A stretch of DNA of 38,088 nucleotides from a virus, in IMG/VR virus record IMGVR_UViG_3300024259_001156, positions 1-38,088 of that record. One strand, 5' to 3'. A model generated the notes under the pieces. That model saw nothing but the letters and a program-made list of their open reading frames with translations, was not told the DNA's origin and did not search any database. Shown here piece by piece: positions 740 to 20,599 of this stretch; positions within the stretch are counted from its first letter, which is position 1; the number at the start of each line of letters is the position of its first letter. Both the position numbers and the translations under genes were made by a program.

Positions 740-2890
740 ATGCCAACTATTTCTTTAGCGATGATCTGTCACAACGAGGGTGCTACCCTTGAGAAAGCCA
801 TCCAATCAGCATTGCCTTTTGTTGATGAGGTGGTTATTGGAGTAGATAAAAGCTCTACTGATAACACCGCTGAGATAGCCAAGATGTATGCTACGCCGGG
901 TAAATACTTTGAGTATGAGTGGCGGGATGATTTCTCATGGGCGAGAAATCAGGCTATCAAGCGATGTGAGATGAGCCTGGTATGCGTGGTCGATGGCCAT
1001 GAGTTTATCCCCGGCGACGATGAGCCTATAGGAGTCAACTGTGCCCGTATGCGGGGGACTGATCCTAATACGGTTCAGGTTCCCACCCCGATGGCTCTGT
1101 TTGATAATATCCACAAAGAGGGATTACCCGAGGGGATGGATGTAGCCTGTATCACCTTAGCAATGAACGTGGACGAGTGGGGCATACCACAACTATTCTT
1201 CCTACAACCACGGATATTCAGGAACACAGGCGAGATCTATTATCAGAACCCTGTCCATAATGCATTGATGGGATATGATCAAGAAAAGGCGATGGCTTAT
1301 CCCGAAGCGATAATTGTTCATAACATGCCACCACAGCGCGAAGCTAAAAGGAAGAAGCAACGTGGTAAGATGAACTTCTCTGGGCTAATGGCTGATGTGC
1401 GCGAGGAGCGCAAGAAGCCCATAGAGGATCAAAATGCGCGTCCCTTCTTTTACATGGGCAATTCTCATGCTGACTTAGGCAATCAAAAACAGGCTATTCA
1501 TTGGTATGAGCAGTATCTAAAACGATCCAAGTTTGGTGAAGAGCGATACCAAGCCCTTCAACAGTTGGCTGTCCTTGAGCATAGATACCATAAAGATCCT
1601 ATCAAGGCCCGAGAGTATGCCCGTCAAGCCTCTGAGACGCAATGGCGTCGGTGTGAGCCTCATGTATTGATGGGTGAGATATGCGCCCAGGAAGGCGATT
1701 GGGAGCAAGCGATTCATCACTTTGATGTATGCGACATCTATGAAGCACCCCTGACGGTTATGTTTTTGCAGGGATCTGTCTATTCTTATATGCCTGATTT
1801 CCAACGGGCACGTTGTTATGCCAATCTCAATAATTGGGGCAAGGCGTTAGAGTATATAGAGCGCGTCCTTACATGGCGTCCTGGCGATCCCGAAGCATTG
1901 GCTTTGTATGGCGAGTTTAAGAGCCATCTAAACCACTCAGAGGGACAACCCAACCTTCTTATGGTGGATAGAGTGGGTAGTTTTACCACCGACATCGGGC
2001 AGACGTTTACTGACAATGGCTTTTGCGTGTCGCGACAGAATGCTTGCGATAATCAGTGGAAGGCGTGGGCTGATCTGGCGTGGTTCGAGTGGTGCGATGA
2101 GAATATCGCCCACTGGTCAAGAGCCGATTGGGATTGTCCTGTCATCGTCCGGTTGCATTCCTATGAAGCGTTTGGCAATATGCCTGAAGCGGTCAACTGG
2201 CAAAACATCTCTCACCTCATCTTCGTCGCTCCTCATATACAGCAGCTCGTTCATCAGCGATGGCCCGAACTGGCTAAGGTGCCTCAGTCTGTTATACCTA
2301 ATGGAGTAAAACTAAATGGTTTGGAGTATAAGGAGCGTAGTCATGGTAAGAGGATAGGATACCTCGGATACCTCAATCACAAAAAGGGTATCGATCTACT
2401 GATACAGGCCATGTATTCATTCCCTGAGTATGAGTTCCATGTGGCTGGCTCCTTCCAAGACCCGCACCTTGAGTATTATGCTCTCAACTCATGGGCCGAG
2501 ATGAGCAATGTGTGGTTTCATGGATGGATAGATAACAAGGATGAATGGCTTGAGGAGGTTGATTATCTTATCAGTCCATCTATAGTAGAATCGTTTGGCT
2601 ATTCTATTGCAGAGGCGATGGTCAAAGGGATCAAGCCTCTGGTGCACCATCGTCCCGGTGCTATCTGGCCGCAGACATGGCGCACGATGGATGATTTAGA
2701 ATTGATGATTGATCCACATAGCGAATACAACTCTCAGGCTTATAGGGACCATATCGTCAATAACTACTCGCTGGAGAAGCAGATGAGCATGACGATGGAT
2801 TTGGTTCAAAGCCTTTTGGCGCATAAACAACAACGTGGCCCTCATCTTGAATTTGCACAGGAGGTAGTATGTCCGAAGATAGATATATAG
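740..2890 (+). CDS. Three-part glycosyltransferase: GT2 domain, TPR region, GT4-like domain
   Basis: This 716-aa protein opens with a GT-A family-2 domain: ISLAMICHNE at 4-13, the acidic VGVDKSSTDNT-type nucleotide-binding stretch around 32-43, and VVDGHEF near 83-89 in the place of the usual DxD. The middle (about 230-400) has helical repeats typical of TPR. The C-terminal part (about 430-700) resembles a GT-B family-4 enzyme, with IPNGV near 520 and the E-x7-E pair E617/E625 in ESFGYSIAEAM. It should transfer sugars from activated donors in the cytoplasm. A GT2-TPR-GT4 fusion suggests two sequential transfers on one scaffold. It is the first gene of the rightward block; its start has no obvious Shine-Dalgarno and sits just after a leader hairpin. 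The acceptor is unknown. Confidence 0.85.
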   Translation: MPTISLAMICHNEGATLEKAIQSALPFVDEVVIGVDKSSTDNTAEIAKMYATPGKYFEYEWRDDFSWARNQAIKRCEMSLVCVVDGHEFIPGDDEPIGVNCARMRGTDPNTVQVPTPMALFDNIHKEGLPEGMDVACITLAMNVDEWGIPQLFFLQPRIFRNTGEIYYQNPVHNALMGYDQEKAMAYPEAIIVHNMPPQREAKRKKQRGKMNFSGLMADVREERKKPIEDQNARPFFYMGNSHADLGNQKQAIHWYEQYLKRSKFGEERYQALQQLAVLEHRYHKDPIKAREYARQASETQWRRCEPHVLMGEICAQEGDWEQAIHHFDVCDIYEAPLTVMFLQGSVYSYMPDFQRARCYANLNNWGKALEYIERVLTWRPGDPEALALYGEFKSHLNHSEGQPNLLMVDRVGSFTTDIGQTFTDNGFCVSRQNACDNQWKAWADLAWFEWCDENIAHWSRADWDCPVIVRLHSYEAFGNMPEAVNWQNISHLIFVAPHIQQLVHQRWPELAKVPQSVIPNGVKLNGLEYKERSHGKRIGYLGYLNHKKGIDLLIQAMYSFPEYEFHVAGSFQDPHLEYYALNSWAEMSNVWFHGWIDNKDEWLEEVDYLISPSIVESFGYSIAEAMVKGIKPLVHHRPGAIWPQTWRTMDDLELMIDPHSEYNSQAYRDHIVNNYSLEKQMSMTMDLVQSLLAHKQQRGPHLEFAQEVVCPKIDI

Positions 2891-3198
2891 AGGTATTTAG
2901 AGAGTTGCAAATAGATCTCATCGATTCATTGAGTGCTTTTTATAACTGCGTTGATGAGGATTCTGAGATATGGATGGATGATGATAGGGCTTATCGTATC
3001 CTTGAGATCTGCCAGGGTGACTCCGATGGTTTTGTCTCTATACCGCTTACGTGGTGGGATCATTTTAAGATAGAGAAGTTGTCCTTTTTTAATTCCCTTT
3101 TGAAGCCACCTAAATATCGCAGGATCTATATAGGTAACTCAGGTCAAGATAAGTTCATTAGCGATAAGATGATCGCGATATGGAAATATAGCGCATGA
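2869..3198 (+). CDS. Hypothetical protein (109 aa)
   Basis: A 109-residue acidic protein that I do not recognise. It overlaps the end of the glycosyltransferase by 22 bases and is preceded by a strong AGGAGG 6 bases before the ATG. The N-terminal half is helical and rich in Asp/Glu (DEDSEIWMDDDRAYRILE); the C-terminus is basic and aromatic. The next gene begins inside its stop codon (ATGA), so the two are translationally coupled. Confidence 0.65.
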   Translation: MSEDRYIEVFRELQIDLIDSLSAFYNCVDEDSEIWMDDDRAYRILEICQGDSDGFVSIPLTWWDHFKIEKLSFFNSLLKPPKYRRIYIGNSGQDKFISDKMIAIWKYSA

Positions 3199-3521: not shown

Positions 3522-3781
3522 TTTTCATTCTACTCAAGATTTTGGAGATAAGCCTTTTCATCTTAGGTCCGGTGTATGTATGTCGATGGGTGGGAATATT
3601 TGTGGAACGATACACCATTATGAGAGACGATGCAAGGGATTTATGTTTGTTCTTGCGGTGGTGTACAGGATGTGTTTTATCTATGGCAGGAATCATCACG
3701 ATGTATATTTTATGGCTTATTCTCTCCACCCTCATCTCTGTAAATTGGCAATGGGCACAGGAGATAGCCAATGCTCTCTAG
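3509..3781 (+). CDS. Small membrane protein (90 aa), TTG start
   Basis: It starts at TTG (3509) with GGAGG seven bases upstream, overlapping the previous gene by 13 bases. Two strongly hydrophobic stretches are visible: residues about 4-25 (ILLKILEISLFILGPVYV) and about 55-75 (VLSMAGIITMYILWLILSTL). They are separated by a charged loop with several Arg and Asp. It is probably a two-pass inner-membrane protein. It overlaps the following glycosyltransferase by 11 bases. It could be a membrane anchor for the sugar machinery, but no family is recognised. Confidence 0.6.
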   Translation: MPVLIFILLKILEISLFILGPVYVCRWVGIFVERYTIMRDDARDLCLFLRWCTGCVLSMAGIITMYILWLILSTLISVNWQWAQEIANAL

Positions 3782-4502
3782 CGCAATAATCCCAGTATAT
3801 AACCAAACACCCGCTTATCTCAGAGCGGCTATCCTCTCCGTTCGTGAGCAGACGGTCCCTTGTGAGATTATCGTGGTGGATGATGGCAGCAATCCACCCT
3901 GTCATACAATTGTATGTGATATACCAACAGACAAAGATCATCCCATCATTTATGTGCAGCAAGAGAATGGTGGCGTATCGTCTGCTATGAACAAAGGTCT
4001 TGAGTATGCTAATGGTGAGTATATACAATGGCTTTCCTCTGATGATCTTTACCGCGCAGAGAAGACAGAGATACAAACAAAGGCGCTCCAAGATTCCGGT
4101 GAGATGATTTGTTATTGCACTTATGAGGAGGGTATACCTACTATTCAGAATGTGTGGCCAGCGGCTCAATATCCGAATAGTAAGTCCCTTTTTGATGGAC
4201 TTAGGCAGCATAGTTTTATTAATGCCTGTACCGTCATGTGGCATAGAGATGTCTTTGATGAGGTGGGTGAGTTTGATATAAACATGCGTCATATGAACGA
4301 CACAGAGATGATTTTGCGATGTGCAGAGAGGTATAACTTTGTCGCTGTAGATGCACCTCTTGTTCGTCGGCGTATCCATCCTGGTCAGATGATCAATACA
4401 CTGCGGCAAGAGGACGAGGCTAAGTCCAAACAAGCCGATCTTGATTATGTAAATAAACGCTATGGTGCAACTCTAAAACTGTGGGTACCTAATGCCAACT
4501 AA
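3771..4502 (+). CDS. Family-2 glycosyltransferase (GT-A)
   Basis: The 243-aa protein has a textbook GT2 layout: SAIIPVYNQTPAYLRAAILS at 4-23, VVDDGS at 35-40 for nucleotide-sugar binding, ENGGVSSAMNKGL at 65-77, and WLSSDD at 87-92 supplying the metal-binding acidic pair. A later MNDTEMILRC segment fits the catalytic-base region. It is a soluble GT2 without membrane segments, so it probably acts on a cytoplasmic carrier or protein acceptor. It overlaps its neighbours on both sides. Donor and acceptor are unknown. Confidence 0.9.
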   Translation: MLSSAIIPVYNQTPAYLRAAILSVREQTVPCEIIVVDDGSNPPCHTIVCDIPTDKDHPIIYVQQENGGVSSAMNKGLEYANGEYIQWLSSDDLYRAEKTEIQTKALQDSGEMICYCTYEEGIPTIQNVWPAAQYPNSKSLFDGLRQHSFINACTVMWHRDVFDEVGEFDINMRHMNDTEMILRCAERYNFVAVDAPLVRRRIHPGQMINTLRQEDEAKSKQADLDYVNKRYGATLKLWVPNAN

Positions 4503-4671: not shown

Positions 4672-4847
4672 GATATGAGGTGCTACACTTAGAGTCTAAT
4701 TATCTTAACGTATATTGGGGTGTGTTTGATCATTGGGATGAGCGATTCATCTATGTGAGGATCAAGCATAAGATGGCTAAGAAGATATGTCGCCACCTTA
4801 ACAAAATAGAAGAGCATAACGAGAAGATAAGGGAACTATGGTCGTAG
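4668..4847 (+). CDS. Small hypothetical protein (59 aa)
   Basis: I place the start at ATG 4668 (MRYEVLHLESNYLN). GGGAGG lies about 10 bases upstream, and the ATG overlaps the previous stop as ATGA. An in-frame ATG at 4650 would put the ribosome site inside the gene. The protein has a short beta-like N-terminus followed by a basic amphipathic helix (KHKMAKKICRHLNKIEEHNE). No family is recognised. It overlaps the next glycosyltransferase by 10 bases. Confidence 0.55.
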   Translation: MRYEVLHLESNYLNVYWGVFDHWDERFIYVRIKHKMAKKICRHLNKIEEHNEKIRELWS

Positions 4848-5686
4848 CCGCTTTCTTACAAAATTACAACGGTGTCTTAAATAGCTACCTTCGCCAGTGC
4901 CTCACATCTATGTCGGTTGTAGCTGATGTTATATACGTCTATGATGATGGCTCAACGGAGGATGTTAAGTCCATCTATCAGGACTTCGATTGCGTGGTGA
5001 TATACGGGCGAGAAAATAACTTTCGCCATGAGCTTTTACATAAGCAGAAACTCCTATCTATCGCTCTGCGGAGCAATCCCACATGGCTCTGCTGGTTTGA
5101 TTCAGACGCCATTCTGGGCGCATGGTGGGAGGATAGGGATCGCACAGAGGATACCTTAGCAAGAGCCAGTCAGCAGAATATTGACCTCATCTTTTTACAT
5201 AACCTCAACCTTTGGAGAGATAGTTGGTGGTATCGTACAGATCAATCCTATAACGACCTATGGCATGGTGTCTTCTGGCGCAATACGGGGCAGTTACACT
5301 ACAAGCCTGTAGCCAAATTGCATCAGAAGCAATATCCTTTTTTCTATTATGATACACAGCACTCAACCAATACGACACAACTTCAGCAAGATGACGCGCA
5401 ACTATTGCACTTCGGCTTTGCCTCTGCCGATGAGATAGCCAAGAAGTATTTCACGTATAGAGACAACGGACAGACAGGATGGGCTTTAGATAGGTTGGTA
5501 TCAGAGCAAAAGATGATCAACCCACAGACGAATGAGGAGGAGGTGTTTACGCTTGAACCGGCTATGGGTAATTGGTTTCCCTCTTGGTATGATCACGGTA
5601 AACCCGCTGAAGAGCCGGAGCCTCTTTTTACTCCCGAAAGGATGATGCTCTATGGTAGCTACGAACAATGGAAAGCAGCCCAATAA
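4838..5686 (+). CDS. Glycosyltransferase family 2-like protein
   Basis: The 282-aa product resembles GT-A glycosyltransferases: VAAFLQNYNGVLNSYLRQCL at 3-22, VYDDGSTEDV at 34-43, a central KLLSIALRSNPTWLCWFDSD at 71-90 with the metal-binding DSD at 88-90, and a Trp-rich acceptor region (WRDSWWYR, WHGVFWR). The C-terminus is extended and acidic. It should use a nucleotide-sugar and a divalent metal. The aromatic richness of the second half suggests stacking against a sugar acceptor. Confidence 0.8.
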   Translation: MVVAAFLQNYNGVLNSYLRQCLTSMSVVADVIYVYDDGSTEDVKSIYQDFDCVVIYGRENNFRHELLHKQKLLSIALRSNPTWLCWFDSDAILGAWWEDRDRTEDTLARASQQNIDLIFLHNLNLWRDSWWYRTDQSYNDLWHGVFWRNTGQLHYKPVAKLHQKQYPFFYYDTQHSTNTTQLQQDDAQLLHFGFASADEIAKKYFTYRDNGQTGWALDRLVSEQKMINPQTNEEEVFTLEPAMGNWFPSWYDHGKPAEEPEPLFTPERMMLYGSYEQWKAAQ

Positions 5687-5807
5687 AACCGCATCAACGA
5701 TAGGTGCTATCATTGGCTTGTGGGTCGCTCTGTATGTGATATTCACCTTGGCTCTTTTCGCGTGGAATGGTGCAGATAAAACAGTTACCTGGATATTAGG
5801 AGGTTGA
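5652..5807 (+). CDS. Small single-pass membrane protein (51 aa)
   Basis: ATG 5652 to TGA 5805-5807, overlapping the end of the glycosyltransferase by 35 bases. The N-terminal 15 residues are polar and basic (MVATNNGKQPNKTAS), followed by one hydrophobic segment at about 17-38 (IGAIIGLWVALYVIFTLALF) and a short tail. An AGGA about 10 bases upstream supports the start. A small bitopic protein is likely; I cannot tell whether it is a holin-like, anchor or regulatory peptide. Confidence 0.5.
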   Translation: MVATNNGKQPNKTASTIGAIIGLWVALYVIFTLALFAWNGADKTVTWILGG

Positions 5808-5809
5808 TA

Positions 5810-6799
5810 ATGCGTATCGCCGTTGTGCATCCCGGCTCGGGCTGGATACTGTCTCATATAGCCAATCGATTAGCAGAGGCTTATCCTGATATTATTGAAT
5901 CCTATACACCCACCTATCTTACTGAACATATACTTGAAGACTTCAGTCATATTGATGCGTGGGTCTATTGCGATATTCAGAATTGTTATTATGCCATGCT
6001 GAAGGAGTATTACTCAAAAGCTATCCACGTAGGATTGTTTACTCATCTGGACAAAGATTCTCCCGAGTCATATCGTTTCCATTGGGGATCGTTGGATGGC
6101 GTAGTGCATATGTGCGAACGATATTATCAGATGTTCCTTGATAATCACTTTTTCCATGTTGATAGAATGACGATTATCCGACCCGGTGATGTATCGTCGT
6201 TTCCATTCCGTCAGGTGCGTTTTGGTATATGCCAGCGCGGTGAGCATATCGGTAAGGGAGCAGAATTCTTACCGGCTGTCATGGATAATCTTGCTGCTGA
6301 TGTGGCTGATGGTATTGAGTTGGTGACGTTAGGCAAAGGATGGGAGAATAAAGACTTTGGTGTCTCTCATACCTGTTGGCTTGATGAGTCGTATGATAAT
6401 TACCCTGCCTTTTATCACCATATAGATTATCTATTGATACCCTCACTGTGGGAGGGTGGTCCAATGGCATTGTTAGAGGCTATGGCGGCAGGTATTCCCA
6501 TCATCGCCCCTGATGTGGGGTGGGTGCCTGAGATCATGCGCGAGCTTACTACGCTCTTGGACATGGATGGCAAGGACATTGATAGCAATATCGAGGGTGT
6601 GACCTATTATCGTCCCTCTCACTTCTGGCTCTATAAGCCGGGAGACATTGATGGGCTTAGTCACATTATTGACTCTATCATGTCGGTTCGTTTAGCCAAG
6701 AGACAAGTCGTGGCTTCGATGAGCTATGAGAAGTATGGCCGCGACCTTATGAACTTCATCAATCATCTCAAAGGGCTGCGCGATGGTGCCTTCAGTTAG
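5810..6799 (+). CDS. GT4-like (GT-B) glycosyltransferase
   Basis: I choose ATG 5810 because AGGAGG sits 6 bases upstream; a TTG six bases earlier is also in frame. The 329-aa protein has a typical GT-B N-terminus (MRIAVVHPGSGWILSHIANRL) and a strong C-terminal GT1/4 signature: PSLWEGGPMALLEAMAAGIP with the E-x7-E pair E215/E223, followed by PIIAPDVGWVPEIM for donor binding. It retains sugar configuration by family knowledge. At 329 aa it is slightly short for the family, with a reduced N-terminal acceptor domain. Confidence 0.85.
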   Translation: MRIAVVHPGSGWILSHIANRLAEAYPDIIESYTPTYLTEHILEDFSHIDAWVYCDIQNCYYAMLKEYYSKAIHVGLFTHLDKDSPESYRFHWGSLDGVVHMCERYYQMFLDNHFFHVDRMTIIRPGDVSSFPFRQVRFGICQRGEHIGKGAEFLPAVMDNLAADVADGIELVTLGKGWENKDFGVSHTCWLDESYDNYPAFYHHIDYLLIPSLWEGGPMALLEAMAAGIPIIAPDVGWVPEIMRELTTLLDMDGKDIDSNIEGVTYYRPSHFWLYKPGDIDGLSHIIDSIMSVRLAKRQVVASMSYEKYGRDLMNFINHLKGLRDGAFS

Positions 6800-7004: not shown

Positions 7005-7120
7005 TGAAGAGATACTGTCTGGGTGCTATCCTATTGCTCGGTATTTGCTCGCTTATTGCTCGGTTCTGTTATACACATAACGACGAATATTCAATAGAGA
7101 AATGGATAGATAATGCCTGA
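7004..7120 (+). CDS. Tiny secreted or membrane peptide (38 aa)
   Basis: ATG 7004 to TGA 7118-7120. The N-terminus MKRYCLGAILLLGICSLIAR is a basic residue pair followed by a hydrophobic core, like a signal peptide or single membrane anchor with two Cys, then a short polar tail. GAGGA lies about 9 bases upstream. It overlaps the next gene by 8 bases and the previous one by one. Function unknown. Confidence 0.45.
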   Translation: MKRYCLGAILLLGICSLIARFCYTHNDEYSIEKWIDNA

Positions 7121-7574
7121 GATAATCCTTGATCTGGGATGTGGAAGTCACAAGATCGACGGGGCCATCGGCATAGACTACTATCCCTTTGAAGGCGTTG
7201 ATATTGTCCGCGATCTGACAAGGGGCTTGCCCTTTGGTGATAGCGTAGTCGATGGCGTTATCGCTAAACAGGTGATGGAGCACGTAGACGGAACCGATCT
7301 CATATTCTTAGTCGAGGAAGTATGGCGCGTCTGTAAGCCGGGGGCGCAGTTCCTCGTCATCGTTCCTGATAAATCCTCATCAAATGCAGGGAAAGACTTC
7401 ACGCACAAAAAGAAGGACTGGGACGAGTTCAGTTTTGATATGTGGAAGAAGAATGATGGCGAATACATCATCCACCGAGGACCAGGGTATAATATCAAGG
7501 GCGAGTTTAAGGGGTATTCTGATTTGAATTATCAATCAAAGGATCGCACCTATAGATTGGAGGTGGTCAAGTGA
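7113..7574 (+). CDS. Class I SAM-dependent methyltransferase (methyltransferase-11-like)
   Basis: The 153-aa protein has motif I ILDLGCG at 5-11, an acidic end of strand 2 (IGIDYYP), and the typical post-motif order DGVIAKQVMEHVD followed by WRVCKPGAQFLVIVP. It is a short, core-only Rossmann methyltransferase. It probably caps a sugar or other small acceptor, given its neighbours. The substrate is not determined. Confidence 0.85.
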   Translation: MPEIILDLGCGSHKIDGAIGIDYYPFEGVDIVRDLTRGLPFGDSVVDGVIAKQVMEHVDGTDLIFLVEEVWRVCKPGAQFLVIVPDKSSSNAGKDFTHKKKDWDEFSFDMWKKNDGEYIIHRGPGYNIKGEFKGYSDLNYQSKDRTYRLEVVK

Positions 7575-7756: not shown

Positions 7757-7771
7757 AATGGAGATGATAGA

Positions 7772-8548
7772 TTGAGTAATATTACAGCCTATGTCTTGAT
7801 CAGCCACGACGTACCACTGTTAGAATGGTGTATCACCAATGCCCGAGAGAGAGCAGGGGTGGAGCATGATTGGCTTGTGGTTAATTGGATCAATGATCCC
7901 GAAGAAGCCAAGCCGGTAAAGAAGTGGTGTAAAGACAATGGAGTGCGCTATTGTAGTTTTAAGGCAACCGAGGGTGAAGGGACGGAGTGGTTTCTTGAGA
8001 ATTTATATTCGGGATGGAACGAGGGGTATAAAAAGGCAGAATCCAAGTGGGTAGTGCGACTTGGCTCCGATCAGTTCTTTAGCCAAAACTGGCTGGCGGC
8101 ACTGATGAACTGCCGCTCTCGTTGGGGTGATCGTGCTGTCTATCATACGTGGACAGTGGAAAGCCCTATCGCCAAGGGGTCGCGCCATGATGTGAGAGAC
8201 TTTGGCTCTGACTGGCAATCGTTTGATCCTGTTCAGTTCGATCAATACGCCGACCACCTCATCCATAAGTATGGCTCACGGTTGGCTCTTTCTACGCATG
8301 AATGTGGCTTGTGGTATAATCATCCCGCAAGGGGGCAGCAGTTGCGTCCTGATGGCTGCACATGGCTACAGACGAGGGATCTATGGGAGGAGTTCGGCCC
8401 GATGGATGATAAGCTCAATGATGAGAGCGTGACAGGCGATGTGGCGTATATGGATCGTATCTATGACGGAGGAGTGCCGGGATTCTTGGTGCCACCATCA
8501 TCGACCTTCCACCTTGTCAGATCGGAATCGAGGCATCTCCAAGAGTAA
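7772..8548 (+). CDS. Glycosyltransferase family 2-like protein, TTG start
   Basis: The 258-aa frame opens at TTG 7772 with GGAG upstream. It begins ITAYVLISHDVPLLEWCITN, with ESKWVVRLGSDQFF at about 90-103 in the DxD position, then a Trp/Tyr-rich acceptor half. The overall order fits GT-A proteins, although the classic VVDDGS is replaced by VVNWIND, so the match is weaker than for its neighbours. It closes the first run of sugar genes before the HNH gene. The alternative is a nucleotide-diphospho-sugar-fold protein of other activity. Confidence 0.6.
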   Translation: MSNITAYVLISHDVPLLEWCITNARERAGVEHDWLVVNWINDPEEAKPVKKWCKDNGVRYCSFKATEGEGTEWFLENLYSGWNEGYKKAESKWVVRLGSDQFFSQNWLAALMNCRSRWGDRAVYHTWTVESPIAKGSRHDVRDFGSDWQSFDPVQFDQYADHLIHKYGSRLALSTHECGLWYNHPARGQQLRPDGCTWLQTRDLWEEFGPMDDKLNDESVTGDVAYMDRIYDGGVPGFLVPPSSTFHLVRSESRHLQE

Positions 8549-8561
8549 CACTAAATGGTAT

Positions 8562-8589
8562 TTGACATATCTATCATAACTCCTATATT
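8562..8589 (+). promoter_or_regulatory. Rightward sigma70-like promoter (TTGACA-16-TATATT)
   Basis: A perfect TTGACA (8562-8567), a 16-bp spacer and TATATT (8584-8589) lie in the only real gap in this part of the block. They are 38 bases before the ATG of the HNH endonuclease. This suggests the endonuclease and following genes have their own transcript. Confidence 0.65.
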
Positions 8590-8627
8590 TTTAATAGCGA
8601 TTTTCTTTTTTAACCAAGGAGGATATG

Positions 8628-11805: not shown

Positions 11806-11919
11806 AAAAAAAGGGATACACGCCATTCGATCATACTAAGGGGCCATACCCGCTCTCCCATTCTATTGACGGTGAGAAGATGCCGCCCGAGGGCACCAAG
11901 CAGCCTAAGCATGATGGGG
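11489..11919 (+). repeat. 431-bp exact direct repeat, copy 1
   Basis: Bases 11489-11919 recur, apparently without mismatch, at 12374-12804 (offset 885 bases, a multiple of three). The repeat covers the last third of paralogue A plus the first 39 codons of the following gene. Confidence 0.95.
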
Positions 11920-12395: not shown

Positions 12396-12690
12396 GAATT
12401 ATGGGGCCGAAGTCAACAAGGAAGAATGGACAGAGGAGGAGCTTATAGCGGGTAATGGCGGAGGGAGGATGCAAGATAATACCATGTTCGATTTCATGCC
12501 GCATCTATTTATAATTAAGAAGAGTGCTATGTCGCTATTTATTCCAATCATAACGAACCCGTGGAGCATTGAACAATGCTTAGGTAATGCATCCAGTTTA
12601 TCTCAGACTGTTTTTTCTGAGAAGCCCTTTGATTTTGCTGATGGGGTGATCTACAACGCCAACCAACAGATACAGGTATCAGGGGTATGA
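12374..12690 (+). pseudogene. Truncated duplicate of paralogue A (C-terminal fragment)
   Basis: This is the second copy of the 3' third of the gene at 11113-11805, in the same phase. It lacks the N-terminal two thirds. The longest remaining open stretch with a start is 12469-12690 (73 aa, MQDNTMFDFMPHLF...). It is probably not a functional enzyme, although the fragment could still be translated and its stop is coupled to the next start (ATGA). Confidence 0.75.
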
Positions 12691-12804
12691 AAAAAAAGGG
12701 ATACACGCCATTCGATCATACTAAGGGGCCATACCCGCTCTCCCATTCTATTGACGGTGAGAAGATGCCGCCCGAGGGCACCAAGCAGCCTAAGCATGAT
12801 GGGG
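12374..12804 (+). repeat. 431-bp exact direct repeat, copy 2
   Basis: Second copy of 11489-11919. The copies are separated by 454 bp of unique sequence (11920-12373) that encodes the coiled-coil region. Recombination between the copies would delete exactly 885 bp and join paralogue A directly to the methyltransferase gene. Confidence 0.95.
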
Positions 12805-13592
12805 GCAACCCTCCCCATATAGCATCCAAGGCTTTCGGTATCTGCAATCCAGCGGGTGAAGATTTTGGACCGCTGATTGATCATCTGGGTGAGGGTTTGT
12901 TTTCTTCCTTCAAGCTGGATTTTAGCAATACGATTCCCTTCTCTACGGGGGGTATTCATCCGCATACGGGATTGCTGTTGTTTGCCTTGGCCCTCAACAT
13001 GCGCCCCGATGTGATCGTAGAGACAGGGACATTCATGGGTTATTCAACCTTCTATCTTGCCAAAGTATGTGAGACATGGCGACAGGGTAAGGTGTATACC
13101 TTTGATCCCGATCAAAATATGATAGCGCCCGAGATTAAAAGAAACCCTTATGTGGAATGTATACCCGCCAGGAGCGATTCGGCCATCTTCAAGAACAAGC
13201 TGGAAGAGTTGGGCGAGATAGACTTTGCTTTTATTGACTCGTGGAAACGCTTGGCCCTTTTTGAGTTTGCTCTGATAGCTGATCATATTGTCGATGGTGG
13301 TATAGTTGTTTTTCACGATACGCAACTATTGAACACGGGACGTGAACTGTGGCAGATTATCAACGGATCATTCCAAGAGTTTGAGTCCATCTTTTTTTCA
13401 GGTATTCCCCATGAAGATAACCCTCATAATTTTCATGGCAATGCCGATCACCGTGGGTTGCTCGTCTTGCGTAAACGCTCTGAGGTATTACCCTTTCTCG
13501 AAGTTGCCGATGCTGGCACTGATGATTTTGGCAGCCGACAGGTGACGCCCAAAATGGAATACTTATCTATTGTTCCAAAGGAGATCGAATGA
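12687..13592 (+). CDS. Class I SAM methyltransferase (methyltransferase-24-like), 301 aa
   Basis: The first 39 residues come from the duplicated segment. The enzyme core follows: VIVETGTFMGYSTFYLA (motif I at about 112-121), VYTFDPD (acidic end of strand 2), FAFIDS at 181-185, and GGIVVFHDT at 204-212. This fits the Methyltransf_24 / cephalosporin-hydroxylase-like group common in surface-polysaccharide loci. It probably methylates a sugar hydroxyl or related acceptor in the cytoplasm. It is coupled to the next gene by ATGA. The Pro- and charge-rich leader (1-45) looks disordered and may serve as a linker or tag. Confidence 0.85.
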   Translation: MKKKGYTPFDHTKGPYPLSHSIDGEKMPPEGTKQPKHDGGNPPHIASKAFGICNPAGEDFGPLIDHLGEGLFSSFKLDFSNTIPFSTGGIHPHTGLLLFALALNMRPDVIVETGTFMGYSTFYLAKVCETWRQGKVYTFDPDQNMIAPEIKRNPYVECIPARSDSAIFKNKLEELGEIDFAFIDSWKRLALFEFALIADHIVDGGIVVFHDTQLLNTGRELWQIINGSFQEFESIFFSGIPHEDNPHNFHGNADHRGLLVLRKRSEVLPFLEVADAGTDDFGSRQVTPKMEYLSIVPKEIE

Positions 13593-14461
13593 AAGGATTC
13601 TCTGGTGGCACGGTTGAGGTGCGTGTGAGAAAGACGGCAGCAGATAAGTCTAAAAACACCCGCCTAGATTATGAGATAACGCGGTTGAATCATATAGGCC
13701 AAAACTACGGGCCACATATTTGCACCCCTACGATTTATCAAGATAGTCGTTTGATAAAGGACGGTGTGTTCTCCTATGAGATGGAATATATCCCTGGGCT
13801 TCGGTTAGAGGATGCGTTGCCTACTATGACGGTGAGTGAGATAGGTAAAACAGCCCAACGCCTTGCCTGTTTTATAATGGCTTGCTCGGATAACCTAGCC
13901 ATCCCGTCTCCACGGGGCATAGTCATAACACCCGAGGAACAGTTTATAAGAGAGAAGTTAGATTCGATAAGTCTTCACATTGATCCCGAGTGGCCCGAAT
14001 CAATAGAATACACCGATGTTGCCAAGTGGGTCGAGGTTGACACTCCTACTAAGAGCACAATGTGTCATGGTGATCTTGCTTTAGATAATATAATAGTAAG
14101 CGGTAATCGGCTTTATCTCATTGATGCCTTATGCCAAGGATTTGATAACTACCACTGGGACATAGCTAAGATACTACAAAGCTGCCTATGCCATTGGCCT
14201 ACGGTGCGCGATAATGATGAGATTTATCCTATGGATGAGTCATTCCCCATCTTAGGTAGCTTGCTGTTACGTGCATTAGACGAGCACTGTGATCATGCAC
14301 GAGTTGTCTTATATCTCGGGACCACTCTGGCGCGTATCATCCCCTATGCACCCACGGAACGACAAAAGAGGATGTTGCTATCCATGTCAACGTTTGTGCT
14401 CAAGGGCTATCTATCCAACTCATTTATCACTCAACCTGTTCCCCTGAGTGAGCCATGCTGA
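13589..14461 (+). CDS. APH/choline-kinase-fold phosphotransferase
   Basis: The 290-aa protein shows the APH kinase pattern: MEYIPGLRLEDAL at about 64-76 (hinge), MCHGDLALDNIIV at 158-170 with the catalytic H160-G-D162 and N167, and LYLIDAL at 175-181 with the metal-binding D179. It should phosphorylate a small alcohol, amine-alcohol or sugar with ATP. It is followed by an overlapping nucleotidyltransferase gene. A kinase beside a nucleotidyltransferase parallels the LicA/LicC pair that makes CDP-choline, so the two may make an activated headgroup. The substrate is inferred only. Confidence 0.8.
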   Translation: MKGFSGGTVEVRVRKTAADKSKNTRLDYEITRLNHIGQNYGPHICTPTIYQDSRLIKDGVFSYEMEYIPGLRLEDALPTMTVSEIGKTAQRLACFIMACSDNLAIPSPRGIVITPEEQFIREKLDSISLHIDPEWPESIEYTDVAKWVEVDTPTKSTMCHGDLALDNIIVSGNRLYLIDALCQGFDNYHWDIAKILQSCLCHWPTVRDNDEIYPMDESFPILGSLLLRALDEHCDHARVVLYLGTTLARIIPYAPTERQKRMLLSMSTFVLKGYLSNSFITQPVPLSEPC

Positions 14462-15165
14462 CGCTTGTTTTGCCTATTGCCGGTAGGGGACAGCGGTTTA
14501 TTGATAAAGGATACGAGATCCCCAAGCCCTTCGTTGATGTGGTGGGACAGCCCATGATACAACGGTGTGTGGATAACCTACCTCAAGCAGATAAAACAGT
14601 CATCATCCATCTCAATGACCATCAGAGATGGATAGACAGGTGGGCCGATTCGTCTTATATTTGCGAGGGCTTGGCCGATGTGACACCCGGAGCGGCATGG
14701 ACCGTCTTAGCGGCACGGCATCATATCGATCCTGAGAGCGAGTTGATCATAGCCGACTGTGACCAGTGGGTCGATTGGTCGCCTGGGCATTTCTTAGACT
14801 ATATCAGGCGACAGCAAGCCGATGGGGCCATGCCTGTTTTTAGGGGACACCGTTCGCACTGGTCCTATGCTCACTTTGATGCAGAGGGGAGGGTCGAATC
14901 AGTCATTGAGAAGGTGCCCGTTACTGCCGATGCTATATCAGGAGTCCGATACTTTGTACGCGCTGAGATGGCGTTCCAGGCTCTTGAGCGGCTTGTGGCA
15001 CAGCCTACCCTTGGCGAGTATCACCTTGGTCCTGTCTATAATGATCTGATCCAGCGAGAGTTTAAGATACTGGCGTATCCTGTGCCGAGGGTCTATTCAA
15101 TGGGAACGCCTGTTGAGTTAGAATACACGCTTAATAGTGGCATATTTCAGGAGGACACATGTTAG
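14455..15165 (+). CDS. Sugar-1-phosphate / alcohol-phosphate nucleotidyltransferase
   Basis: The 236-aa protein begins LTLVLPIAGRGQRFIDKGYE with the GxGxR nucleotide loop at 10-14 and the catalytic Lys in IPKPF (K24). A metal-binding DCD follows at 101-103 (LIIADCDQWV). This is the core NTP-transferase domain without the C-terminal beta-helix of larger pyrophosphorylases, similar in size to LicC-type enzymes. It would couple NTP to a phosphorylated sugar or alcohol made by the kinase just upstream (7-base overlap). Nucleotide and substrate preference cannot be read by eye. Confidence 0.85.
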   Translation: MLTLVLPIAGRGQRFIDKGYEIPKPFVDVVGQPMIQRCVDNLPQADKTVIIHLNDHQRWIDRWADSSYICEGLADVTPGAAWTVLAARHHIDPESELIIADCDQWVDWSPGHFLDYIRRQQADGAMPVFRGHRSHWSYAHFDAEGRVESVIEKVPVTADAISGVRYFVRAEMAFQALERLVAQPTLGEYHLGPVYNDLIQREFKILAYPVPRVYSMGTPVELEYTLNSGIFQEDTC

Positions 15166-15863
15166 ATTTCAAGTATAAGTTGGGTCTTGCTGTTACCATG
15201 TTTGATGAAGTGGATACGGTATGCTTTAACCTGAGACTGTGGGGGCATAAGCTATCTCATATAGAGGTGGTACAATCGGGCGTAGAGCCTTATAAAAGTA
15301 TCAGCGATTCTATAGATGCTCATCCTTCCGCAAACTATACACAATTTCCTAACTTAGATGATCGTACCGACGAGGAGAGAGCCAAAAGTAACGAGCGTTT
15401 TGACTTTGGGCAGCGATCAATGGCGCGTAATTACTCTGCTGCTATGCGGGGGATGGAGAAGGTTGACTACGTTATATGTATAACGGGTGATACCAAGCTC
15501 TATCATCTCTATGGCGTTGATCGTATCATTGCCAATATGGAGGAAGTGGCTTGCTCAAGGGCGATGGGACAAAACCTACATAAGGCCGAATGGACAAGAG
15601 AGGAGATGGCCGACGCCAACCATCCTAAGGGAGGACGTATTCAGGATGCTTCAAACAAAGACTTCATGCCACAATTCTTTATCGTTTCTTGGGGCATGGT
15701 GGAGCGATTGAGTAACATAGAAGTTACTAATCCTTGGTGTTTTGAGCAATGCTTGGGAGATGCTATTGGCGATGCCAAGCAGTATGTCTTTTCAGATACA
15801 GCCTATGGATTCAATGATGGTGTCCGGTATAACGTCCCTTCGCCCAAAGGATGGAAACATTGA
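15159..15863 (+). CDS. Glycosyltransferase-like protein, paralogue B (234 aa)
   Basis: Complete paralogue of the gene at 11113. The shared signature includes VICITGDTKLYHLYG, KAEWTREEM, GGRIQD, DFMPQFFIVSWG and TNPWCFEQCLGDA. The N-terminal half is more divergent and contains DDRTDEERAKSNERFDFGQ. The TGDT element after a hydrophobic strand resembles a GT-A DxD region. AGGAGG lies about 5 bases before the ATG. The two paralogues bracket the methyltransferase, kinase and nucleotidyltransferase, so they may use the product of those enzymes. Confidence 0.6.
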   Translation: MLDFKYKLGLAVTMFDEVDTVCFNLRLWGHKLSHIEVVQSGVEPYKSISDSIDAHPSANYTQFPNLDDRTDEERAKSNERFDFGQRSMARNYSAAMRGMEKVDYVICITGDTKLYHLYGVDRIIANMEEVACSRAMGQNLHKAEWTREEMADANHPKGGRIQDASNKDFMPQFFIVSWGMVERLSNIEVTNPWCFEQCLGDAIGDAKQYVFSDTAYGFNDGVRYNVPSPKGWKH

Positions 15864-17830
15864 AGATATATTTGTGTGATCTTACTCATACAACACAAGG
15901 ATATGGCTCAGAATTAGTGCCGTATGCCATTGGGTGTATTGCTGCCGGATTGGATGAATATGTATGCCTATTTAAAGATCCCGCTCTATTAAACGCCGCT
16001 TTTAAAGATGTCCGACCAGATATTGTCGGCTTCAGTAATTACATGTGGAATACAAATCTCTCTTGTGCTATTGCCAAAGAGATAAAGGATAAATACCCCG
16101 ATATACTGATCGTCTTTGGTGGCCCCAACTTCCCGCTACGAACAGATGGTCAACGCCAATGGTTGCGAGATAGACCCTATATTGACCTCTATATCGCCGG
16201 GGAAGGCGAGACACCTTTTGCACAAGTTGTCCAAGAGTTCAAGTGGCACCACGACATCGGCACTACACAGTTAAGTGATATTTATGGTGTATGCTCTGTT
16301 GTAGAGGGTGACTATCACAAGGTGCTTACTCAATGGCCAGATGGGACAGATAACCTTCCCAGAGAAGAAGACTTGGGCTTTGCCATATCGCCTTATCTCA
16401 ATGGCTCCCTTGATGAATTCTTAGCCGATCCTAAGTTGATCCCGATACTCGAATGCAATAGAGGTTGTCCCTTCACCTGTACGTTCTGCGTTGATGGCAC
16501 TAAGAGCCGTTGTAAGGTAGAGAAGCATACCACAGAGCGTATGCTGGCTGAGTTAGAATATATCGCTCGTCGCACCCAAGCAAAGACACTGTTTCTTGCT
16601 GATTGTAACTTTGGTATGTATGCGGAGGATGTAGAGTTTAGCCTTGGTGTTCAGAAGATAAAGGAGAAGTATGGCTATCCTCAATACATAAACGCTTCAA
16701 CGGGTAAGAATAAAAAAGAGCGTATCATAGAAGTTGCCAACAACTTACAAGGATCGCTCAGGGTAGCCGCCTCGCTTCAGTCAATGGATGAGGAGGTGCT
16801 TGAAAACATAAAACGAACCAACATTGATAAGGATACGCTCTCTGAGATCGTTTTAAGTCTACCAGATGCCAATACGTATAGCGAGCTTATTCTTGGTCTA
16901 CCTGGCGATACCGCAGAGAAGCACAAAAAAGCGATCTGCGAGCTGATCGACATGGGCTATGATCAGATACGGATGCACCAACTAACGCTGTTGCCGGGGA
17001 GCGTATTAGACACACAGAGAGAGGAGTTTGGGCTAAAAACAAATCACCGTGTTCTACAACGGTCCTTTGGTGTATACCCTTGGGGCGATAAATCCATACA
17101 AGCCATTGAGACGGAAGAGGTAGTTACTTCAAGTAATACTTTTAGCGGATACCGCACCTGTAGGATGTTTGCGCTCTCCGTCGTCTTGCTCCATAATGAG
17201 AGGGCTTTTTACGAACTGGCTCAGTTTATTCGTATGATGGGATATAAGTATAGCAGTTTTGTGTCTTTTGCCCACGATCACATTATGAAGATGCCTGTTT
17301 CTAATCCAATGGCCTGCCAGTATGATCGTTTTTATCAACAAATGGACGACGAGCTAATGGATAATCCAGAAGGGAATATGGATGATCTATTGGCTGGGAG
17401 GACAGGGAATAATTTACTATTCAACACACAAGGGCATATACTCTATCATCAGTACGCTGACCTCAACACATTGGTATATTATTTAACGCGATACTTTATT
17501 GCTCTGCGCGATCCTTCTTTTCCTTCTGCGGATGAGAGACAATACCTGGACGAATTGGGGCGGTATTGTGCCATGAAAAAAGGCCATCTATCTGATATGC
17601 ACAAGAGGGATTGGTCTGTTTTTGCTTATGACTTCATCCAGGCAGAGGAGGATAATTTCAAAGCAATGCCCGAAAAGAAGAATACTAAGATTGAGTTTTA
17701 TTACACACCCGAACAAATAGACCTCTTCGATAATCAGTTTTATCTGTATGGCCGCTCTGATCAGGCTCTTGGTAAGATTATTGCCAGAGCGCCGATGAAG
17801 GATACCTATAGAAAAGCTACTTATGGATAG
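15851..17830 (+). CDS. B12-binding-domain radical SAM protein (659 aa)
   Basis: The N-terminal part (about 1-130) looks like a cobalamin-binding fold (DIVGFSNYMWNTNLSCAIAK, LIVFGGPNFP, YIAGEGE). The radical-SAM cluster motif C206-x3-C210-x2-C213 (GCPFTCTFC) follows, then a TIM-barrel region with ELILGLPGDTAEKH and QLTLLPGS. The layout is that of class B radical-SAM enzymes, which often methylate unactivated carbons or rearrange substrates. A TTG at 15860 with AAGGA 8 bases upstream, overlapping the previous stop, may be the true start (MKIYLCDL). It is coupled to the sulfotransferase-like gene downstream. Substrate unknown, probably a sugar or lipid precursor. Confidence 0.85.
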   Translation: METLKIYLCDLTHTTQGYGSELVPYAIGCIAAGLDEYVCLFKDPALLNAAFKDVRPDIVGFSNYMWNTNLSCAIAKEIKDKYPDILIVFGGPNFPLRTDGQRQWLRDRPYIDLYIAGEGETPFAQVVQEFKWHHDIGTTQLSDIYGVCSVVEGDYHKVLTQWPDGTDNLPREEDLGFAISPYLNGSLDEFLADPKLIPILECNRGCPFTCTFCVDGTKSRCKVEKHTTERMLAELEYIARRTQAKTLFLADCNFGMYAEDVEFSLGVQKIKEKYGYPQYINASTGKNKKERIIEVANNLQGSLRVAASLQSMDEEVLENIKRTNIDKDTLSEIVLSLPDANTYSELILGLPGDTAEKHKKAICELIDMGYDQIRMHQLTLLPGSVLDTQREEFGLKTNHRVLQRSFGVYPWGDKSIQAIETEEVVTSSNTFSGYRTCRMFALSVVLLHNERAFYELAQFIRMMGYKYSSFVSFAHDHIMKMPVSNPMACQYDRFYQQMDDELMDNPEGNMDDLLAGRTGNNLLFNTQGHILYHQYADLNTLVYYLTRYFIALRDPSFPSADERQYLDELGRYCAMKKGHLSDMHKRDWSVFAYDFIQAEEDNFKAMPEKKNTKIEFYYTPEQIDLFDNQFYLYGRSDQALGKIIARAPMKDTYRKATYG

Positions 17831-18392
17831 GCTCATCTGTGTCATAGGACAACATAGGGGTGGCACCTCCGTTGCTTGTGATCTGGTGGCTGCTTGTGGA
17901 TACTCTTTTGGTGTACAAAGTCCCAATGATCTACGATTCAGCCGCCACGAGCATCCCATAAGAAAGGGACATCCTCAGATGACGGAAGAGGACGCCCAGG
18001 TAGCTCTCGTCACGCTGGAAGAATCGGGTGCTAACGCTGTCAAGCTCACAACCAATATAGCACCTTGGTTGCGTAACCTGAACGGCATCGTCAAAGATCT
18101 AAAGATCGTCGCCATGCTGAGATCGCCTCTGGCTATTTCTAATAGCCGATCATCAGGCGATAGTTATGCTTATGCTGAGGATGAGTCAAGCATCGAAGCC
18201 GTGTCCTATGAGCAAGGAGGTATTCTTACTCTACTGAATCGTATTGCTGTACCGACACTTATAATAGATTTTGAACAACTACTAAATGATCCCGTCAATC
18301 ACTTGCGCCATTTACCTCTATTTCTGAATAGTCAAGTGGATGCGAGCGACCTTAGTTCACTTATACACCCAGAGATAGTAATACATGGATGA
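17823..18392 (+). CDS. Sulfotransferase-like protein (189 aa)
   Basis: The N-terminus LICVIGQHRGGTSVACDLVA has the PAPS 5'-phosphosulfate loop of sulfotransferases (GxxRxGTS-like) at about 9-16. LKIVAMLRSPLAISNSR near 98-114 matches the 3'-phosphate-binding segment (RxP...S..R). At 189 aa it is shorter than usual (about 250-300), so it may be a minimal sulfotransferase or a related P-loop protein. It overlaps both neighbours by 8 bases. If active, it would add sulfate to the glycan made by this cluster. Confidence 0.65.
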   Translation: MDRLICVIGQHRGGTSVACDLVAACGYSFGVQSPNDLRFSRHEHPIRKGHPQMTEEDAQVALVTLEESGANAVKLTTNIAPWLRNLNGIVKDLKIVAMLRSPLAISNSRSSGDSYAYAEDESSIEAVSYEQGGILTLLNRIAVPTLIIDFEQLLNDPVNHLRHLPLFLNSQVDASDLSSLIHPEIVIHG

Positions 18393-19017
18393 TGAGCGTA
18401 TAGCCTTGTTCTCTGAAGCCATCAGAGAAAGGGGCGTGGGCGTGGTTGGTCGGTTAGATGTGACCATAACGGCTAACGATTGCTGGTGGATATACAAAAT
18501 ACTATCCTCCCTAAAAGACAATCCTACGGTCCTTGAGTTTGCTGGCGGTGCTGGCACTTCTACCTCTTGCGCCAAAGAGGCGCTGTGCGATAAGCCAGTA
18601 GACTTTTATACCATAGAAAGCGACACAAGCCTTTATGACGATCTACAGTCCATAATAAACGGCTGGGGCATTCTACTCCCTGGTGCTGCGGATGATCTGT
18701 TAGATGAGATACCTGACCAATTAGATGCTCTCATCCTTGATGCTTATCATCACTACTCATGCGCTCAGTGGTATATTACTAATCTCTGGCCCCGTGTGGT
18801 CCCAGGTGGCTATTGTATGATCCATGATATGTTTTACAGGAGTGATCTGGGAGATGAGTATAAAACCGTTCTGACGAGCTTGGATTTGATCAAGTGGAAC
18901 ATCGTCCATCAAACTAAAGATGAATCACCCACGCCTTCAGGTTGGTCATATCTTACGGGCTATCCATCTGGTATACAAAACTCATTATTGATTATAAGGA
19001 GAACAGATGCAAACTGA
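18385..19017 (+). CDS. Class I SAM methyltransferase (210 aa)
   Basis: Motif I TVLEFAGGAGTSTSCA lies at about 48-63, the acidic strand-2 end at YTIESD, strand 4 at LDALILDAYHHYS, and GGYCMIHDMFY follows. This is again the Methyltransf_24-like pattern, related in layout to the enzyme at 12687. It overlaps the sulfotransferase-like gene by 8 bases and the next gene by 11. It probably methylates a small acceptor in the same pathway. Confidence 0.75.
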   Translation: MDDERIALFSEAIRERGVGVVGRLDVTITANDCWWIYKILSSLKDNPTVLEFAGGAGTSTSCAKEALCDKPVDFYTIESDTSLYDDLQSIINGWGILLPGAADDLLDEIPDQLDALILDAYHHYSCAQWYITNLWPRVVPGGYCMIHDMFYRSDLGDEYKTVLTSLDLIKWNIVHQTKDESPTPSGWSYLTGYPSGIQNSLLIIRRTDAN

Positions 19018-19513
19018 CACCTTCGGGCAGATCATTGACAGGCTCATCATCACCAACCTCAAGCGGTATCACTATGAGAAGGACGATAACAAAGAAGCTG
19101 CCGAGTTGGCAGGGGAACAGGCAGACAGTCTCTCCAAGGCTCTGGAGGTTTATGATTGGGAGTGTCGCAATAAGAAGAGGCTCCCCCTTGTTCAGCATCA
19201 TCTGAGATTTCACAATCACAACGATGTGGAGGCTTTTCGCGTGGGCAAGAAAGTAACCCCCAATGTACCCGATACGATGGGCAAGTGTGTTGATGCCCTT
19301 GTGACCTGTCATTCTGATTACTGGCATAACCAGTCCCGGCTCCAGACGCTCAAGCAGATGATCGACTCAGCGCCCAAGGATAGCGCCGATCAAGCCCATT
19401 TTGAGAAGGAGTTTGTCCAGGCACAAAGGCTCACAGATATTCTGAACCAGTCAAGAAATGAAATCCTTGAGGGTATGGATGAACTATATGTCAAAGCGGT
19501 GGGCGATGAATGA
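19007..19513 (+). CDS. DUF4254-like protein (168 aa)
   Basis: An all-helical 168-aa protein. The start FGQIIDRLIITNLKRYHYE and the end LTDILNQSRNEILEGMDE resemble DUF4254, a family of unknown function commonly found in lipopolysaccharide and exopolysaccharide loci. This is by motif resemblance only. AAGGAG lies about 8 bases before the ATG, overlapping the previous gene. Its presence supports a glycan role for the block. Confidence 0.5.
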   Translation: MQTDTFGQIIDRLIITNLKRYHYEKDDNKEAAELAGEQADSLSKALEVYDWECRNKKRLPLVQHHLRFHNHNDVEAFRVGKKVTPNVPDTMGKCVDALVTCHSDYWHNQSRLQTLKQMIDSAPKDSADQAHFEKEFVQAQRLTDILNQSRNEILEGMDELYVKAVGDE

Positions 19514-19616
19514 TAAGCAATTACTTATTCATAGGGTATTGACAATACTAAGCAATCTAATCAAGAGAAAGAAGGAACTGGAATGGGATTACAAGATAAG
19601 AGCGCAGCATACATAG
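19506..19616 (+). CDS. Possible tiny basic peptide (36 aa)
   Basis: ATG 19506 to TAG 19614-19616 gives a basic helical 36-residue peptide (MNDKQLLIHRVLTILSNLIK...). It spans the small gap between the DUF4254-like gene and the radical-SAM gene, overlapping both. The ribosome site is weak and no family is known, so this may be chance. Confidence 0.25.
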   Translation: MNDKQLLIHRVLTILSNLIKRKKELEWDYKIRAQHT

Positions 19617-20599
19617 ACTCACGCAAGGCATCCTATACGGCGGCATCTGTCCTGCCGCTCAAGGTGATTCAGTCCAAAGAGATACAGGCAGCGGCTACTC
19701 TTAAGCGATACTTCCCTGTTCATGCTCAGTTTATCCCTACCGAAAGATGTAATCTAAATTGTTCGTGGTGTAGCTGCGCTAATGATACCCGGCGTATTAC
19801 TGCCAGCATTGAGATGGTAGAAAAACTGGTTGATGTATTGTCAAGATGGGGATGTAGAGCTGTCACGATCACGGGCGGCGGCGAGCCGTTGATGGCTCCC
19901 GATATCAAGCAGATTCTTACGCTTTTTAACGGGGCCAATATAAAGATTGGACTTGTATCTAACGGTTATCTATTCCCCAGCCGAACGGATACAGAAGATA
20001 TATCTAAGTTGACGTGGTGTCGGATATCCTGTAGTGATGATAGGGGGTTGGATACTAAGGGATTTGGCGATGCGATAACGTATGCTGTTGAGCGTGGTCC
20101 CAATGTTGATTGGGCTTTCAGCTATGTAGTCACCAGAGAGTTCAATTTAGATCGCTTCTGTGAGTATATCGAATATGCCAATAAATACGACTTTACCCAC
20201 ATGAGAGCCGTATCCGATCTGTTTGATCTGGACGGTGTAATTGATATGGATATCATTAAGCGAGATGTGAGAGAGCGAGGGATCAATGATAGCAAGGTAA
20301 TTTACCAAGGGCGCAAGGAATTTAGCCGGGGTGTCAAGGATTGCCTTATCAGCCTCTTGAAGCCTGTCATCGGTGCCGATGGTAAAATCTATCCATGCTG
20401 CGGGGCGCAATATGCCCTTGATGAACCCACCCGCAACATGCCCGATGAGCTTTGTATGGGAACGATAGATGACTTGGATGAGATCTTTGCCAAGCAACTT
20501 AACTTTGATGGGTCCATTTGTAGGCGATGTTATTATGGTGATTACAATAAAGCACTGAGCGGGTTGATTGTCCCTTTAGAGCATAGAGAGTTTGTATAA
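19583..20599 (+). CDS. Radical SAM enzyme with SPASM-like C-terminus (338 aa)
   Basis: The cluster motif C56-x3-C60-x2-C63 (ERCNLNCSWC) is followed by ITGGGEPLM at about 96-104 (SAM-binding GGE) and IGLVSNGY. The C-terminus has extra Cys groups, KIYPCCGAQYA and SICRRCYYGDYN, as in SPASM/twitch auxiliary-cluster domains. Relatives modify peptides, sugars or alcohols. It is the last gene of the rightward accessory block and is followed at once by a 14-bp perfect hairpin. GAAGGAAC lies about 8 bases before the ATG. Confidence 0.85.
   Translation: MGLQDKSAAYIDSRKASYTAASVLPLKVIQSKEIQAAATLKRYFPVHAQFIPTERCNLNCSWCSCANDTRRITASIEMVEKLVDVLSRWGCRAVTITGGGEPLMAPDIKQILTLFNGANIKIGLVSNGYLFPSRTDTEDISKLTWCRISCSDDRGLDTKGFGDAITYAVERGPNVDWAFSYVVTREFNLDRFCEYIEYANKYDFTHMRAVSDLFDLDGVIDMDIIKRDVRERGINDSKVIYQGRKEFSRGVKDCLISLLKPVIGADGKIYPCCGAQYALDEPTRNMPDELCMGTIDDLDEIFAKQLNFDGSICRRCYYGDYNKALSGLIVPLEHREFV

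Follow-up and report, generated by a model that had tools for sequence, protein, structure and literature searches.

The DNA analysed here is virus record IMGVR_UViG_3300024259_001156, a stretch of 38,088 bp that we call the window. Positions 740-20599 hold a glycan gene block, with genes on the plus strand and many of them overlapping. At least 17 of these genes, about 15.7 of the 19.9 kb, belong to sugar chemistry or are conserved partners of sugar genes, and all of the named genes are intact open reading frames (ORFs) where an earlier sequence-only reading had placed them. That reading proposed a pathway for glycan or headgroup biosynthesis. We think it fairly probable that the block is a phage-borne glycan module, probably expressed late, and that a virion protein carries its product.

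Six or seven of the proteins are glycosyltransferases of GT-A or GT-B type. The clear cases are g01 (740-2890), a fusion of GT2, TPR and GT4 domains (profile matches of 4e-13, 1.6e-13 and 3e-12); g04 (3771-4502), a GT2 enzyme with DDGS and SDD motifs (4e-26); and the GT4-type g06 (5804-6799; 1e-12), given a start at 5810 by the sequence-only reading. That reading had counted g05 (4838-5686) as a fourth clear glycosyltransferase. This divergent GT2-like protein, encoded by a core gene of the lineage, is not clear by Pfam alone (GT2 at 0.006, below the gathering cut-off); the best match of its family profile is GmaR, at 3.6e-4. Three further glycosyltransferase-like proteins fared unequally. The product of g19 (15159-15863) has a TGDT motif and adopts a GT-A fold in its AlphaFold model (pLDDT 74.7; Foldseek 2e-6), with a Z of 13.7 over 170-185 residues and a root-mean-square deviation of 3.6-4.0 in structural comparison (VIA). 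Its paralogue g13 (11113-11805; 33% identity) is assigned the fold through this homology, and neither has a Pfam match. The third, g08 (7772-8548), is kept across the lineage and resembles GT2 weakly (0.024, below the gathering cut-off).

The nearest relatives of the g01 GT2 domain are the protein and peptide glycosyltransferases GmaR (1e-9) and SunS (1e-8). GmaR glycosylates flagellin and SunS the peptide sublancin, both in the cytoplasm. We take g01 as a candidate for the first glycosyltransferase acting on a virion protein.

The remaining enzyme classes named by the sequence-only reading were mostly recovered by profile matches: an epimerase, a kinase with a nucleotidyltransferase, three methyltransferases, two radical-SAM (S-adenosylmethionine) enzymes and a DUF4254 protein. 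The kinase, g17 (13589-14461), is an APH-type enzyme for a small molecule, either a sugar or an alcohol (APH 8e-7; motif HGDLALDN), and has no match in the PDB. It is paired with the sugar nucleotidyltransferase g18 (14455-15165; NTP_transferase/NTP_transf_3; motifs GRGQRF...PKPF and DCD). Members of the g18 family were retrieved from at least 594 stretches of viral contigs, with an alignment rather than a single protein as query. Some cyanophage members are fused to a HAD phosphatase, an arrangement not seen in the window, and HAD genes lie near the nucleotidyltransferase gene in related contigs G004 and L138.

The epimerase, g11 (9705-10826), is an extended short-chain dehydrogenase/reductase (SDR; epimerase profile 2e-27; GGAGFVG, TNKVY, YGATK) that keeps the GxxGxxG and YxxxK motifs of its superfamily. 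Its closest family by profile is the CDP-tyvelose (CDP-paratose) 2-epimerase, at 2e-68 against 2e-32 for the next, and we predict that this 2-epimerase-type enzyme acts on a cytidine diphosphate (CDP) sugar. The two radical-SAM enzymes are g20 (15851-17830) and g24 (19583-20599), the latter a conserved right-hand gene with a Radical_SAM match and a weak SPASM match. By its B12-binding domain and radical-SAM CxxxCxxC (CPFTCTFC), g20 is a class-B cobalamin-dependent C-methyltransferase of the TokK/CysS/KedN5 group. It matches TokK at 1e-48 and the KedN5 model NF033712 at 2e-55, and its 188 bits against that model's curated 700 place it outside the KedN5 subfamily.

The closest bacterial relatives of g20 (44-45% over the full length) occur in two alphaproteobacterial metagenome-assembled genomes (MAGs), in operons ordered RfbF, RfbG-like, RfbH and B12 radical-SAM enzyme. 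These operons encode a glucose-1-phosphate cytidylyltransferase (TIGR02623, 292 of 300 bits in L110), an SDR resembling CDP-glucose 4,6-dehydratase, and RfbH (695 bits, cut-off 423). Together with the family of g11, they point to a CDP-linked, C-methylated sugar, at least part of which the module probably makes itself. The phage g20 proteins share 48-53% identity with one another and 42-45% with the alphaproteobacterial ones, which argues against recent acquisition. The DUF4254 family (PF14063) was found in none of six genomes carrying g20 relatives. Separately, L119 and L120 (~7.9-15.0 kb), from Clostridia/Oscillospiraceae MAGs, carry four tandem B12-radical-SAM paralogues at 28-34% identity to phage g20.

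The sequence-only reading called the set a near-complete pathway. This is right only in part: the phage contigs examined contain no match to RfbF or RfbH, and an RfbG query cross-matches only the g11-type SDRs. Precursor supply is therefore probably in part the host's: the phages may draw on host intermediates, or g17 and g18 may supply another entry sugar.

The likely capping enzymes include the methyltransferases g07 (7113-7574; Methyltransf_11 1e-6; DLGCG), a core gene, g16 (12687-13592; Methyltransf_24, 5e-14; like CmcI and rhamnosyl O-methyltransferases) and g22 (18385-19017; Methyltransf_24 by a Pfam-type profile). The P-loop protein g21 (17823-18392; GQHRGGTS, RSPLAISNSR) had been read as sulfotransferase-like; the label is weak, since Sulfotransfer_3 matches only at E = 0.14, and a search of the PDB gave nothing. 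The all-helical DUF4254 protein g23 (19007-19513; 7e-10) has no sequence match to a solved structure, and its best Foldseek E is 0.16. Most of the family copies checked in related phages keep their catalytic motifs; the exact search pattern is missing from some copies of the nucleotidyltransferase, g08 and GT-A families. These mostly intact motifs answer the concern that the enzymes might be inactive.

Beyond the block and a stretch of C-rich repeats and some minus-strand genes, the window continues into a plus-strand neck and tail module (25493-38088) comprising t1, the Neck1-like t2, the tail protein t4, a tape measure and a tail fibre. A profile of t4 found the related contigs G003, G004, G006, G007, G008 and G009/G010, and profiles of g05 and g19 added L129, L133, L134 and L138. 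L129 shares samples with G004, as L133 does with L138, and each of these pairs may represent a single phage in two halves. L134 closely resembles G009 (~82% in t4). The relatives are otherwise divergent, with t4 identities of 49-75% except between G009 and G010, two contigs of a single species. Some eight such lineages share both the genes of the block and their order, with the same neck and tail genes following directly downstream. Every related contig that extends left of t1 has sugar genes of the module there, in the order g04-g05-g06-g07-(g08), then, further on, nucleotidyltransferase-(g19)-(B12 radical SAM)-DUF4254-radical SAM-(epimerase)-t1-t2-t3-t4. Identities reach 50-53% for g04 (G003, G006, G009) and 56-58% for g16 (G003, G006). 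The right-hand part varies: the APH kinase is found in the window, G003 and G006, HAD genes in G004 and L138, and the B12 enzyme in the window, G003 and G006, with a remnant in G008. Conserved order and adjacency across lineages put the clustering beyond chance, and this survey of co-occurrence, with the profile-identified enzymes, sustains the claim of a phage-encoded glycan pathway.

Parts of the set also occur elsewhere. A 236-kb phage (G005/L048) shares the radical-SAM gene g24 (47%), the epimerase (48%), a g19-like gene, HAD, nucleotidyltransferase and glycosyltransferases, and a 735-kb phage (LR756501) combines, in ~7.5 kb, a radical-SAM gene with an epimerase and a match to DUF4254, which indicates that parts travel together between unrelated phages. 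In the phage collection, a near-identity DNA search of the block found no match, and neither the lineage's tail protein nor g05 had one; a search of genome contigs with t4, for a host or prophage, also found nothing.

The same synteny bears on whether a bacterial polysaccharide locus was joined to a phage tail module by mis-assembly. The block contains a perfect 431-bp duplication, and the join is not confirmed by the near-identical L003 and L004 of other samples, whose sequence begins within the repeat array (20.6-21.9 kb). But independent, divergent contigs from other samples show the same join, refuting an artefact for the lineage and making one extremely improbable for the window; the bacterial island that the sequence-only reading had raised against itself was rejected on these grounds.

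Where the module sits relative to the structural genes provides the strongest indication of its target. In G006, L129 and L133 it lies a few genes after the protease, scaffold and major capsid protein (MCP) genes, with g01 as the first sugar gene. The podovirus MW202524 (ctKR88), complete, circular and otherwise unrelated, has the order MCP, hypothetical protein and three glycosyltransferases, then, further on, methyltransferase, glycosyltransferase, methyltransferase and neck; its cluster, which includes g01- and g07-like members, is followed by a phage stabilization gene. In these records sugar genes are linked with structural genes, and no genomic evidence speaks more strongly for a virion target than the recurrence in MW202524 of an MCP, a glycosyltransferase and methyltransferase cluster and a neck gene.

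From the gene content we can outline how such a module would work. The kinase g17 and nucleotidyltransferase g18 would yield a nucleotide-activated sugar, probably CDP-linked, which g11, g20 and g24 would remodel into a C-methylated sugar. The SunS/GmaR-like g01, perhaps with g05, would place the first sugar on a virion protein in the cytoplasm, and g04, g05, g06, g08, g13 and g19 would lengthen the chain. Capping would fall to g07, g16 and g22, possibly with g21 as a sulfotransferase. The coat would most likely be an unusual, methylated sugar chain on the phage's own particle, and a constant core with variable right-hand genes is what would be expected of a coat that diversifies.

Several observations weigh against attachment to the virion. 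Head adjacency is not universal: the left neighbours of the module in G003 and G009/G010 are replication-type genes (helicase, ParB, HNH), and the window itself has no head genes. The GmaR and SunS matches span only ~90 residues of the g01 GT2 domain; blast searches of the other contigs gave no relative of g21 or g22; and neither a modified protein nor an acceptor residue has been seen. Cyanophage clusters of similar content do not lie beside the MCP gene in the regions read.

A glycosyltransferase needs no membrane segments to work at the inner leaflet of the membrane, and the soluble ones of the block could thus also act on host lipid-linked glycans. Remodelling of the host surface, by altering lipopolysaccharide (LPS), capsule or a lipid-linked O-unit during infection, for instance to block superinfection or release progeny, would also fit the CDP-dideoxyhexose operons of the bacterial g20 relatives and the heptose- and LPS-type genes of the similar cyanophage clusters. 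We regard this explanation as unlikely, while taking it seriously. A hydropathy scan found no convincing membrane protein among the block enzymes and no membrane-embedded transferase. The GtrA flippase (PF04138) was not found in the partial contigs, with controls positive in 7 genomes, and no initiating glycosyl-phosphotransferase was found. These results disfavour a self-contained surface system, and a gtr operon was rejected for lack of GtrA and a membrane glycosyltransferase. The nearest relatives of g01 act on proteins, and a place beside MCP and tail genes would be odd for host takeover.

The sequence-only reading offered DNA as a third target beside virion and host surface; of the three we favour the virion. 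PMC12619734 cites Pyle et al. 2024 for phage glycosyltransferases that decorate DNA with diverse glycans, and the block includes a DUF7768/nucleoside-deoxyribosyltransferase-like gene at 3195. Glycosylation of a modified base in the phage genome is nonetheless very doubtful here. No member of the thymidylate-synthase/hydroxymethylase family was found in nine records, most of them genome fragments (the window, six related contigs, the complete MW202524 and the 236-kb G005); a Tet_JBP search, run without a positive control, found no match; and the complete MW202524 has no annotated base modifier.

Pairs of APH-type kinase and nucleotidyltransferase also make CDP-choline-like headgroups, and the g20 family has many natural-product members (TokK, CysS, KedN5). 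The block might accordingly have nothing to do with a surface glycan and instead produce a diffusible small molecule or a modified lipid. With six or seven glycosyltransferases, no lipid or product assembly enzymes, and relatives of g11 and g20 that indicate nucleotide sugars, we give such a product little credence. The headgroup half of the original proposal found no specific support, and a lipid headgroup pathway was rejected for want of lipid enzymes.

The block and its surroundings contain several other features. Directly 3' of g24 lies a plus-strand hairpin with a perfect 14-bp stem (20602-20637; -24.8 kcal/mol, z = -7.95), the probable end of the block transcript. It is the sole element to stand out, promoter-like sites within the block occurring at chance level only. 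The block also includes unrelated phage genes for HNH endonucleases at 8625 and 10823, and a 130-aa ORF (9316-9708) resembling a segment of the MCP of G006 (25% over 99 aa, pairwise E 6e-9; phrog_29 E 0.003). The 431-bp perfect direct duplication (11489-11919 and 12374-12804) flanks a 454-bp insert that codes for a coiled-coil tail (g14) joined to residues 1-39 of g16, and leaves a 3' copy of g13 (g15); it is either a recent duplication or an assembly artefact.

Between the block and the neck genes, the C-rich non-coding array (20620-21860) comprises ~11 units at a spacing of ~100 bp. The units have a conserved core, TAATATACCACCGACCTTA, NNACC sequence with a 5-nt period fills the rest, and GC skew is strong. 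The motif TTATAATATANTAAATAGTTT, possibly an early-promoter element, lies a short way upstream of three minus-strand genes, at 618, 22754 and 25403 (0, 2 and 0 mismatches; none expected). At the contig end (1-281) lie 15-bp tandem repeats; on the minus strand they give pentapeptide-type repeats belonging to a gene that runs off the contig. The tape-measure gene contains seven 96-bp tandem repeats (31822-32513), where the near-identical L004 aligns with an offset; repeat number, and with it tail length, may therefore vary.

Sugar gene clusters of this general kind have precedents, so the sequence-only reading's remark that the combination was unfamiliar holds only in part. Marine T4-like cyanophages (S-SM2, Bellamy, B23, S-CAM9, SynMITS9220M01) have 10-25 kb of glycosyltransferases, epimerases, g18-family nucleotidyltransferases, kinases and methyltransferases, and in SynMITS9220M01 a methyltransferase and a glycosyltransferase gene adjoin one for a g24-like radical-SAM enzyme. 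The cyanophages differ in their 144-244 kb genomes, their heptose-type genes and a g18 relative that in some cases (B23) is joined to a HAD phosphatase; no g20 relative was found in them, and in the regions read the clusters are not beside MCP or neck genes. MW202524 shares the place between MCP and neck with the lineage, but only glycosyltransferases and methyltransferases are annotated in its cluster, its g01 match is weak (21% over 57%), and no epimerase, kinase, nucleotidyltransferase or radical-SAM homologue was detected. Bacterial CDP-3,6-dideoxyhexose pathways (ascarylose/tyvelose type) share the g11 family and, in RfbF/G/H operons, g20 relatives, but the RfbF, RfbG and RfbH set as such is not present in the phage contigs. 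Prophage gtrABC serotype-conversion operons, as defined in PMC3688519, likewise bring phage-borne glycosyltransferases; the block differs in having many more enzymes and neither GtrA nor a membrane glycosyltransferase.

Few cases of phage virion glycosylation have been described. Mycobacteriophages (Che8, Corndog, Myrna) encode glycosyltransferases, as does the block, and are reported to carry glycans on capsid and tail tube; the excerpted accounts describe them through these glycosyltransferases and do not mention nucleotide-sugar or radical-SAM genes (PMC12363180, PMC12619734). Beyond such virion glycosylation and the cyanophage clusters, what is new is a conserved 10-20 kb locus in an uncultured lineage, its placement between MCP and tail, and its cobalamin radical-SAM and CDP-epimerase chemistry. 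The locus suggests that cobalamin radical-SAM chemistry on sugars is found in phages, and the genomic signature of MCP, SunS/GmaR-like glycosyltransferase, sugar enzymes and neck makes the question testable across metagenomes.

Chloroviruses and mimiviruses encode both the sugar supply and the glycosyltransferases for their own particles (PMC4691112). They are large DNA viruses of eukaryotes and use other enzymes, and for the block a particle target is deduced. We tentatively raise the possibility of a bacteriophage counterpart to this autonomous glycosylation: a siphophage-like lineage that builds its own virion oligosaccharide with a C-branched, C-methylated sugar that a cobalamin-dependent radical-SAM enzyme forms on a CDP-sugar, and that changes its coat as the right-hand cassette is swapped between phages.

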